Assembly (NCBI GenBank): GCA_022702935.2
Contig: JAKIML020000056.1
Span: 1-49,065, forward strand
Direction of reading: 5' to 3'
DNA from: Bacillota bacterium
GTDB lineage: Bacteria > Bacillota > Clostridia > DSM-8532
DNA length: 49,065 nucleotides
Both the position numbers and the translations under genes were made by a program. The notes beneath the pieces are model-generated. The model searched no databases. It had not been told where the DNA came from and saw only the letters and a list, made by a program, of their open reading frames with translations. Below are positions 40,500-43,341 of the stretch, one piece after another. Numbering within the stretch: the stretch's first letter is position 1; each line of letters begins with the position of its first letter.

Positions 40500-41056
40500 T
40501 TTTTCTCTCCTAGTGCTCCTTTGAGGTTTACTGTGAGGGTTCCGGTCTGAACATTGCCGGAGCATTCAATGGTGAGTCCCTCAAACTCCTTTGTAATCTT
40601 TATCTTGGTATTGCCCTTTCTGTACTGGTTATAGGCGTCCCCAATGAGAAGACTGTACAGTGCCTTGGTCTGATCCTCAGTAAAGGCGGGCTTCATATAA
40701 TCCTTGATGATTTTGACAACCTTGCCGATGTCCTTGTAGTCCAGATTAGCAGGCAGCTTATTGGCATCGGCTTTAATGGTCACCAGAATATTATCACTAT
40801 CCTTTTTCACATCGATGACCACATTCCCGTCCTTGGAGGTATACTTGGCTTTTCCGTTTTTATCCAGCTTGGAGACCAGATCCTTAAGACCGGTCTTAAG
40901 GGTTTCCACAGCCTCATTCCTCGCCTTGTCCAGGGCAGAGCCATCAAGGCTTGACAGCCCCGCTGCCGCCATGACCATGCTGGGGTTTACGGTCACCACA
41001 GTCAATACCAATGCCAATGAAATACCTAATAATGATACCACAATTTTTTTACGCAT
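40448..41056 (-). CDS. Secreted protein of unknown function overlapping the topoisomerase B gene
   Basis: 202 aa from the ATG at 41056, which follows GGGAGGATGATTTG. Residues 1-32 are a clear signal peptide (LLGISLALVLTVVTV then MVMAAAG). The rest alternates charged strands and helices (GKAKYTSKDGNVVIDVKKDSDNILVTIKADANKL). I recognise no family. The last 17 codons overlap the topoisomerase B gene in another frame; the ending KKCQPSKSKTTEMKVLPL looks unlike the rest and may be an extension created by loss of an earlier stop. It shares a promoter and strand with topoisomerase B and A. Confidence 0.75.
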   Translation of the reverse strand: MRKKIVVSLLGISLALVLTVVTVNPSMVMAAAGLSSLDGSALDKARNEAVETLKTGLKDLVSKLDKNGKAKYTSKDGNVVIDVKKDSDNILVTIKADANKLPANLDYKDIGKVVKIIKDYMKPAFTEDQTKALYSLLIGDAYNQYRKGNTKIKITKEFEGLTIECSGNVQTGTLTVNLKGALGEKKCQPSKSKTTEMKVLPL

Positions 41057-41192: not shown

Positions 41193-41220
41193 AGTATGAA
41201 GTTTTTTCCCAATGACCTCT

Positions 41221-41249
41221 TGACAGATTCGGGACTCAGTTGTACTATT
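41221..41249 (+). promoter_or_regulatory. Promoter of the GntR-ABC operon
   Basis: TTGACA (41221-41226) and TACTAT (41244-41249) are 17 bases apart. The -10 box lies inside the left arm of a 38-bp palindrome. AAGGAG then leads to the GntR start at 41289. Confidence 0.75.
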
Positions 41250-41278
41250 GTATTAAGCGCTTAATACAATAGTACAAG
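41241..41278. promoter_or_regulatory. Perfect 38-bp palindrome, probable GntR operator
   Basis: The left half TTGTACTATTGTATTAAGC (41241-41259) is exactly matched by its reverse complement at 41260-41278, without a spacer or mismatch. It covers the -10 box and start of transcription of the GntR-ABC operon. GntR proteins of the YtrA group bind such dyads and repress their own operon. The divergent secreted-protein promoter is only 50 bases away and might be affected as well. Confidence 0.85.
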
Positions 41279-41288
41279 GAGTGATACC

Positions 41289-41660
41289 ATGCCATGGGAC
41301 TTAAAGCCTGATCGTCCCATCTATACACAGCTTATAGAGCAGATCCAGCTTAACATATTTTCAGGGGTATACCCTTTGGGGTCCAAGCTTCCTTCGGTGA
41401 GGGATTTGGCCCAGGAGGCCGCAGTAAATCCCAACACCATGCAAAGAGCCCTTGCCAAGCTGGAAGAGGATGGACTTATCATTACTCACCGCACCAGCGG
41501 AAGATCAATCACGGAGGATGCCAATATGGTAAAGCTTGCTCGAAATCGTTTAGCCAAGGAGCAAATCGCCGAGTTTTTAGAAAAGATGAAGCTGATGGGG
41601 TTTGAAAAGCAGGAGACCCTGACTTTGATCACCACCATGCTGGAGGAGATGAAAAAATGA
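41289..41660 (+). CDS. GntR-family (YtrA-type) transcriptional repressor
   Basis: 123 aa, full length for the YtrA subfamily, which has a GntR winged helix and only a short C-terminal dimer helix. Residues 10-75 are the DNA-binding domain: PIYTQLIEQIQLNIFSGVYPLGSKLPSVRDLAQEAAVNPNTMQRALAKLEEDGLI. The tail, about 50 residues, is helical and has no ligand pocket. It overlaps the ABC ATPase gene by four bases (ATGA). Such repressors control an adjacent ABC exporter that is induced by cell-wall stress or antibiotics. Confidence 0.92.
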   Translation: MPWDLKPDRPIYTQLIEQIQLNIFSGVYPLGSKLPSVRDLAQEAAVNPNTMQRALAKLEEDGLIITHRTSGRSITEDANMVKLARNRLAKEQIAEFLEKMKLMGFEKQETLTLITTMLEEMKK

Positions 41661-42355: not shown

Positions 42356-43113
42356 GGAAGCTCTTGAAATATGAATTCAAAGCCACTGGAAGGACCCTCT
42401 TCCCCCTCTATATAGCCCTTGTGGTCCTTGCTGCTATCAGCCGGATTATCCTGGGAACCCCAGATAATAACATTGAAACACCGGGGGCTATCAGCATTAT
42501 GTCCTATATGTGCTTATTGGTGGGGACCGTGGTCACAACCTTCATTGTCATGTTGCAGCGGTTTCATAAGAACCTGCTGGGTGACGAGGGATATCTGATG
42601 TTCACCCTTCCCACGGTACCCTGGAAGCTCATTACTTCCAAACTTTTAGTTTCCCTGGTATGGAGCTTTGTGGGCGCCTTTATGGCCTTATCTTCCATTT
42701 TAATCCTTGCCGCTGATAATGTAACAATAACTGCCCTTTCTGATATTCTGACCCAGATAGTCAGATTCATCACTCAGGAAATGGATGTCTCCGGTGCCCT
42801 TCATATCGTGGAGTTTGTGCTGATGGTGCTCATTATGCCAATATCAGGAATACTGCTGATCTATGCCTCCATTGCCATTGGACATCAGGTAAGCAAGCAT
42901 AAGCTCTTAATTGCCCTGGGAGCATTTGTTGGACTATCCACCGTGTCCATGGCTCTCCTCGCAATGTTTACTGATTTTCTCATGGTTCGGATCTCTGTCC
43001 CGGCCACGGTTCATACCGCTTTGTGGATATTCATCGGCTTCCATACGCTGATGGCAGCGATCTATTTCTTTATCACCAACACCCTGTTAAGTAAGCGTCT
43101 CAACCTGGAGTAA
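42349..43113 (+). CDS. ABC transporter permease, ABC-2 like
   Basis: Membrane subunit of the GntR-controlled ABC system, 254 aa, starting seven bases inside the ATPase gene. Six hydrophobic segments at about 17-38, 52-72, 98-120, 150-178, 184-206 and 220-243. No substrate-binding protein is present, which fits export. The loop LLGDEGYLMFTLPTVPWKLITSKLLVSLVWSF is typical for permeases of this group. Substrate unknown. Confidence 0.88.
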   Translation: MLRKLLKYEFKATGRTLFPLYIALVVLAAISRIILGTPDNNIETPGAISIMSYMCLLVGTVVTTFIVMLQRFHKNLLGDEGYLMFTLPTVPWKLITSKLLVSLVWSFVGAFMALSSILILAADNVTITALSDILTQIVRFITQEMDVSGALHIVEFVLMVLIMPISGILLIYASIAIGHQVSKHKLLIALGAFVGLSTVSMALLAMFTDFLMVRISVPATVHTALWIFIGFHTLMAAIYFFITNTLLSKRLNLE

Positions 43114-43179
43114 TCCATGAAGGACACATAGTGAAAGCCTTGGTATGGCCGAGATTAGGGCCATCATGGACGGGCCGCA

Positions 43180-43293
43180 CACGGCGCTGCCCGTCAAAAC
43201 CAGGGGAATACGCGCTTCATCAATAAGAATGGCATCGGCCTCGTCCACCAGGGCAATGGGCGAGGAATAAAAAAGAAGCTTTTCCTTATCCAT
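43180..43293 (-). pseudogene. SecA-like gene relic
   Basis: A minus-strand stretch encodes SSPIALVDEADAILIDEAR followed by IPLVLTGSA. This matches the DEAD-box segment of SecA, whose usual form is [23 protein letters not shown]. Sequence on either side does not look like SecA and stops follow, so only about 35 codons survive. It lies between the ABC permease and the chemoreceptor. No other SecA part is present in the window. Confidence 0.7.
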
Positions 43294-43306
43294 GCCCCAT
43301 ATACAG

Positions 43307-43341
43307 CAAAACGGCACACGGTTGGAGTACCGGTGCCGTTT
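43307..43341. terminator. Hairpin between GntR-ABC operon and chemoreceptor
   Basis: AAACGGCAC and GTGCCGTTT close a hairpin with extra CGG/CCG pairs inside. It lies downstream of both converging units and may end both, although T-runs are short on either strand. Confidence 0.55.

Follow-up and report, generated by a model that had tools for sequence, protein, structure and literature searches.

A perfect 38-bp palindrome over a GntR-ABC promoter as a probable four-box YtrA-type operator whose arms seem to vary in step

A perfect 38-bp palindrome lies across the promoter of a small GntR-family gene and the ABC transporter genes that follow it. We consider it very probably the operator of a YtrA-subfamily autorepressor, with an inner dimer site and additional outer boxes, at which the regulator would block transcription of its own ABC operon. 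The palindrome was found in a 49,065-nt stretch of Bacillota DNA (hereafter, the window), and the reading is built on sequence comparison across relatives. As such, it is a known kind of operator, though its four boxes are arranged with unusual regularity. What seems most worth following is the concerted evolution of its two arms.

Results

The palindrome, with letters TTGTACTATTGTATTAAGCGCTTAATACAATAGTACAA, is a spacerless inverted repeat of 2 × 19 bp in which 19/19 pairs match around an axis between 41258 and 41259 (Table 1). An earlier sequence-only reading had reported it as free of mismatch and spacer, and this description held; the span given there (41221-41278) also covers the promoter spacer and the greater part of the -35 box. 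No spacerless palindrome in the window is longer; the runner-up has arms of 10 bp, and when the window was simulated 30 times under a first-order Markov model, arms likewise reached 10 at most. By chance, ~2e-7 palindromes of 19 pairs would be expected per 49 kb. Genome-wide, the 38-mer occurs once, even with 3 mismatches permitted. The second-longest spacerless palindrome, CCTTAAGACCGGTCTTAAGG, is a perfect 20-bp repeat at 40882-40901 within a divergent gene of unknown function.

The palindrome is built from a single 8-bp box that occurs four times, twice in each arm, around a central AGCGCT, in the order TTGTACTA-TTGTATTA-AGCGCT-TAATACAA-TAGTACAA. Each outer box is a direct repeat of the neighbouring inner box at a distance of 8 bp, which matches the orientation (same) and spacing (7-12 nt) of additional GntR half-sites. 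The inner pair, TTGTATTA-N6-TAATACAA, places GT and AC 14 nt apart (GT-N14-AC). Because two extra half-boxes are included, the palindrome is longer than a single dimer site, as had been remarked from the letters. No pair of hexamers in the region looks more like a promoter than TTGACA and TACTAT, which are separated by 17 bp and match in 10 of 12 letters. Both the -10 hexamer (41243-41248) and the expected start (~41255) fall inside the palindrome, in agreement with the earlier claim that it covers them. It extends from 3 bases upstream of the -10 hexamer to the Shine-Dalgarno sequence AAGGAG and ends 11 bp upstream of the GntR start codon at 41289.

Table 1. Operator, promoter and operon features in the window
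Feature	Position	Strand	Basis
Perfect 38-bp palindrome, proposed operator	41240..41277	.	sequence, genome search, relatives
Left outer box TTGTACTA	41240..41247	.	sequence
Left inner box TTGTATTA	41248..41255	.	sequence
Central 6 bp AGCGCT, weakly conserved	41256..41261	.	sequence, 94 relatives
Right inner box TAATACAA	41262..41269	.	sequence
Right outer box TAGTACAA	41270..41277	.	sequence
-35 hexamer TTGACA	41220..41225	+	promoter scan
-10 hexamer TACTAT, mostly within left outer box	41243..41248	+	promoter scan
Expected transcription start, +/- 1-2 nt	41255	+	inferred from -10 position
Shine-Dalgarno AAGGAG, overlaps palindrome end	41276..41281	+	sequence
YtrA-type GntR regulator, 123 aa	41289..41660	+	domain and structure matches
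ABC transporter ATPase, 232 aa	41657..42355	+	domain match; beside regulator in 100/102 loci
Probable ABC permease, 254 aa	42349..43113	+	counterpart matched in 97/102 loci

The regulator, ATPase and permease genes overlap in succession. The regulator has an N-terminal GntR winged helix-turn-helix (PF00392, 50.7 bits vs a cut-off of 27) and three traits of the YtrA subfamily: its GntR domain ends at residue 71 of 123, leaving a very short C-terminal part of ~50 residues; it sits in an operon with ABC transporter genes; and it is preceded by a long palindrome whose GT and AC lie well away from the centre, here the conserved inner GT-N14-AC. Among solved structures, the chains closest to the regulator are Lmo0741 and Lin1836. 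The permease, with six hydrophobic stretches, matches nothing in Pfam or NCBIfam. Just downstream of the operon, a 76-aa reading frame on the minus strand (43087-43317) matches no more than 35 residues of a domain of the SecA DEAD-like kind (PF07517; E 7e-8) and is probably what remains of a secA-like gene.

Three further short YtrA-like paralogues in the genome have different upstream motifs, one of which is GGTGTA-13-TACACC, the simple Bacillus subtilis form. Upstream of the genome's most PmtR-like paralogue (L004, 1380-1460; G000:C19), 10-bp direct repeats (GTTATATGCT GTTATATACT) lie within an inverted repeat, and these may be repeated half-boxes with another period.

To compare the site across relatives, we gathered 110 loci, of which 102 remained after removal of 8 duplicates, and called a site in the 200 bp upstream of the regulator where 24 or more of the 32 consensus letters matched. 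The ATPase stands beside the regulator in 100 of the 102 loci and the permease in 97. A matching site precedes the orthologous regulator in 94/102; these 94 are the basis of the counts below, from which L021, L036, L038, L085, L088, L097, L109 and L118 were dropped (the L021 region was misplaced, with no coding sequence found by the script). The invariant columns of the 94 sites fall in the inner boxes, and both inner boxes are exactly TTGTATTA and TAATACAA in 67. The outer-box TGTA and TACA are both retained in 68 sites. Because one or the other was lost in the remaining 26, the outer boxes appear not to be essential everywhere. The distance from site end to start codon ranges from 10 to 112 nt, with a median of 12. 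The promoter layout is also shared: the best -35 hexamer was TTGACA in 75 of the 94 relatives, and the -10 falls largely within the left outer box, where it reads TATTAT in 65 relatives and TACTAT in 12.

Symmetry was perfect (19/19) in 15 of the 94 relatives, and the three central pairs were symmetric in 69, 46 and 45% of sites, so that symmetry at the centre is not maintained in the family, which is the observation here that bears on the cruciform also suggested from the letters. Within the genus, 10 sites could be scored, nine by site scan and the tenth (G011) by eye from its string; five were symmetric at 19/19, three at 18/19, one at 17/19 and one at 14/19. Loss of symmetry in close relatives, on which the sequence-only reading would have given up its proposal, was therefore not what we found. 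Two other species of the genus (L010 and L011) carry a 38-mer identical to that of the window.

We then asked how closely the site follows its regulator in a set of 32 family genomes, in which a GntR orthologue, defined by E ≤1e-40, was present in 24. The full four-box site occurred in 22/24 genomes with the regulator vs 0/8 without it (Fisher p 4e-6, ignoring kinship), and a reversed control pattern had 0 matches in the 32 genomes. The two regulator-bearing genomes that lack the full pattern, G017 and G029, have degenerate sites (L032 and L027). When the inner pair was searched for away from the locus with one mismatch, matches were about as frequent as those of the control. A second full site elsewhere in the genome was found in G003, where it precedes genes that look like those for a TolC-type protein and a MacB-type ATPase, and in G022, where the gene after it resembles one for an alpha/beta hydrolase, in both cases as judged from the translations.

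Some other occurrences were seen along the way. In L182 and L183 (G264 and G225), a four-box site precedes a small lipoprotein-like gene and then a frame resembling the start of GntR. At L204 ~240-290 (G011:C83), the sequence TAAAACCGGTTGTATTA-TTTTGC-TAATACAACCGGTTTTA includes the inner box pair with neither promoter nor outer boxes, and is a long hairpin separate from the operator. A relative's genome contains a perfect spacerless palindrome of 62 bp (L023 1955-2016, also L135), longer than the operator, with GGGGACAGG/CCTGTCCCC near its ends; it is perhaps a mobile or REP-like element.

Some relatives extend the row of boxes, mainly in steps that keep to the 8-bp register. To the right of the outer right box, extra boxes were found in 12/94 sites at offset 0, 4/35 at offset 8 and 2/21 at offset 16. 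At the other right offsets from 1 to 15 there were 0, except for 4/73 at offset 4, which we read as the Shine-Dalgarno region resembling a box, and 1/27 at offset 12. L027 has five extra right boxes, giving seven on the right in total, and L031 has four extra. On the left, a third box occurred at offset 0 in 4/94 and at no other left offset.

We tracked changes in the arms by parsimony on a quick GntR tree (~120 residues, 186 branches, long branches). Mirrored operator columns showed 43 same-branch changes, and in 26 of these the two letters changed as a complementary pair. In 12 slid registers, there were 0-15 same-branch changes and 0-3 complementary ones; these registers have fewer column pairs, which are rarely complementary at the start, so 43 vs 0-15 is the fairer comparison. 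With placement weighted by branch length, pair 6/33 co-changed 7 times vs 1.14 expected (0/5000 draws) and pair 7/32 co-changed 5 times vs 0.67 (0/5000 draws; p 0.0002 with empirical branch weights). The centre pairs were weak (p 0.12, 0.24 and 0.04; with empirical weights 0.21, 0.40 and 0.08), and the end pair showed no excess of co-change (p 0.50). Independent pairs on supported branches numbered 4 and 3, too few for a sign test; for this count, some of the control column pairs were covered. Mirror co-change, the mark expected of template switching, is strong at 6/33 and 7/32 and weak or absent at the centre and end, in species too distant for single events.

Beyond the 94, 28 further sites were found with a search pattern that fixed the left inner box and the outer TGTA and TACA, which leaves the free positions as independent evidence; here, variants were mirror-matched in 2/2 cases at 6/33 and 4/4 at 7/32. 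An outer-box tally combined the 94 loci with the 2 second sites and with those 6 new sites that have a variant outer box, and omitted the 22 other new sites, in which both outer boxes are consensus. In this tally, 24 sites vary on both outer boxes. Twenty-two are mirror-matched exactly, all with consensus inner boxes, and 2 are unmatched; variation on one side only was seen at 5 sites. The two genomes with second sites carry different outer boxes at each: those of G003 read CTA/CTA before the operon and CCA/CCA at the second site, and those of G022 read TTA/TTA and TAA/TAA, respectively.

Symmetry also extends past the 38 bp in some relatives. Symmetric flanking runs of at least 4 bp occurred at 6/115 sites, including 21 of the 28 new sites with flanks long enough, vs 1.05 in permutations (p 0.0005, ignoring kinship). 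With 17 loci set aside because they carry a third right box, the figures were 4/98 vs 0.43, and in the 94 loci alone they were 3 vs 0.78, which is marginal (p 0.04). The clearest example is L069, where a 56-bp perfect palindrome (22-80) covers the operator and Shine-Dalgarno sequence and its left flank repeats, in inverted orientation, the Shine-Dalgarno region typical of the family; with a contig end no more than 80 bp away, it could be an assembly fault. G264 and G225 have a common 6-bp symmetric flank in which one mirror pair differs, and as these are sister species, one event was possibly counted twice.

Discussion

From the anatomy of the site, its conservation and its link with the regulator gene, we infer a scheme of binding, binding order, stoichiometry, repression and signal. 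The inner pair would be the primary site for one repressor dimer, and the outer boxes would take further subunits as cooperative sites, a division that we propose because of the published YtrA-type precedents described below. Bound repressor would cover the -10 hexamer and the start point and so block RNA polymerase, and the regulator, ATPase and permease genes would stay off until a signal, perhaps the transported compound, removes it. The suggestion of a GntR operator over the promoter, already made from the letters, is supported as likely by the retention of the site in relatives and its co-occurrence with the regulator. A point against it is that 8/102 loci had no clear site in the 200 bp searched.

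The closest precedents differ from the window in instructive ways. YtrASa of Sulfolobus acidocaldarius needs a 14-bp core together with secondary half-sites, direct repeats of the adjacent half-site, in a 32-bp inverted repeat (PMC6746942). Like the proposed repressor here, it is a YtrA-subfamily autorepressor whose inverted repeat lies over the start and has a core pair with direct-repeat flanking half-sites. It is, however, archaeal and lacks an ABC ATPase operon, and the cited text describes 3-bp secondary motifs weaker than the core, whereas the window has four near-identical 8-bp boxes in 38 bp. Suvorova et al. (2015) described additional boxes 7-12 nt beside palindromic GntR-family sites, 6 YtrA groups among them, and proposed that they recruit more subunits (PMC4494728). 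In the account cited, those boxes reach about half the score of the true sites' own, whereas the window's are nearly equal, and in some relatives they form arrays.

In Staphylococcus aureus, PmtR protects 36 bp of the pmt promoter over a start mapped by 5' RACE (PMC5080381). As reported there, it too is a small YtrA-type repressor ahead of ABC genes, as we propose for the window, but the window regulator is not PmtR, as it scores 54.9 bits with the PmtR model NF047563 vs a curated cut-off of 200. The B. subtilis YtrA motif, AGTGTA-13-TACACT, belongs to a GntR repressor of an ABC operon (PMC8060467). Its GT and AC are 15 nt apart, near the 14 of the window's inner pair; the motif as cited is a single half-site pair, with no mention there of a nested second pair. 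StsR of Streptococcus mutans binds a 15-bp motif containing TTGTATTA (PMC6340165), the layout of which, as given in that source, differs from that of the window operator. Among the literature matches listed for the exact octamers together with GntR or YtrA, none concerned this motif, which is not proof of absence.

Two other accounts of the palindrome can be weighed against the operator. It could act as an RNA hairpin at the 5' end of the mRNA, as the sequence-only reading had suggested, and control translation or stability through the leader. If the whole palindrome were transcribed, it would fold at -23.8 kcal/mol (z -4.9), and it does end at the Shine-Dalgarno sequence. However, the left arm holds the -10 hexamer, a layout that relatives share, and because the start falls inside the palindrome, the expected transcript would have no hairpin: a start at 41255 leaves 1-4 nt of the left arm, and the 56-nt RNA from that point has an MFE of -7.3 kcal/mol (z +0.58), no better than shuffles. 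Rfam gave no match above the gathering score, only a sub-threshold match to a microRNA model that merely reflects the hairpin. With promoter position, folding and Rfam all pointing the same way, we reject an RNA leader or riboswitch and regard this account as very improbable. Even less probable is a functionless palindrome produced by recent repair-mediated duplication in the source species, which had also been raised from the letters. Spacerless perfect palindromes of this length are indeed rare in the window, but the site co-occurs with the regulator, and an event confined to the source species is refuted by the identical 38-mers of L010 and L011. Because two other species carry this 38-mer, the symmetry is, on this comparison, old rather than recent. 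Nor does its perfection in the window call for any special event, given conserved boxes, because 15/94 relatives are also perfect.

How the symmetry is kept up is a separate matter from what the site does. The oddity is that a single protein would be expected to read all four boxes in the same way, yet change is seen in the outer pair only, across the axis and in step. Drift in protein specificity behind the C/T change of the outer boxes is disfavoured, as the inner boxes do not follow, and so is homogenisation along an arm by slippage between neighbouring boxes, as the outer box differs from the inner in every matched variant. One plausible, though not proven, reading is that the operator arms are also homogenised by template switching (quasipalindrome correction), in which a stalled strand folds back and one arm is copied into the other, so that mutations would arise in mirror pairs. 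Such switching renders imperfect inverted repeats more perfect in Escherichia coli (PMC7202029); the process was demonstrated there, in the account cited, with lacZ reporters, whereas here it is suggested by species comparison. The excess of same-branch mirrored changes over slid registers, the co-change at 6/33 and 7/32, the 22/24 mirror-matched sites with consensus inner boxes, the internally matched but different outer boxes within G003 and within G022, and the flanking runs with the L069 palindrome are all consistent with it. Against it stand the weak or absent excess at the centre and end pairs, the 5 one-sided and 2 unmatched sites, the few supported independent pairs on a short-protein tree with long branches, the possible assembly fault in L069 and the possible double count in G264 and G225. 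Selection remains a real alternative, if the less likely of the two: the outer subunits would bind as a pair, and best on identical boxes. The same outer-box data would fit, and the central pairs, where contact is not expected, show little concerted change. Yet the inner boxes, read by the same protein, never follow the outer change, different outer boxes are tolerated within one genome (G003, G022), and symmetric runs outside the boxes are left unexplained.

If template switching does contribute, which we hold only tentatively, replication would copy mutations in the promoter-side outer box, where the -10 lies, to the leader-side box, so that symmetry would be kept in part by mutation and not by the base preference of the protein, and the ribosome-binding region would sometimes be copied across the axis (L069, L076). 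Among the literature matches listed, none concerned operator homogenisation by template switching, which again is not proof of absence.

The role of extra GntR half-sites was left open in the cited parts of both earlier studies (PMC4494728, PMC6746942). Together, the four-box operator and the relatives with up to seven right-hand boxes offer a natural dosage series for that role. Should template switching homogenise the arms, the perfect symmetry of an operator would not directly measure how strongly its regulator selects for it, and sites of this palindromic kind would be a place to watch that mutation process in nature.
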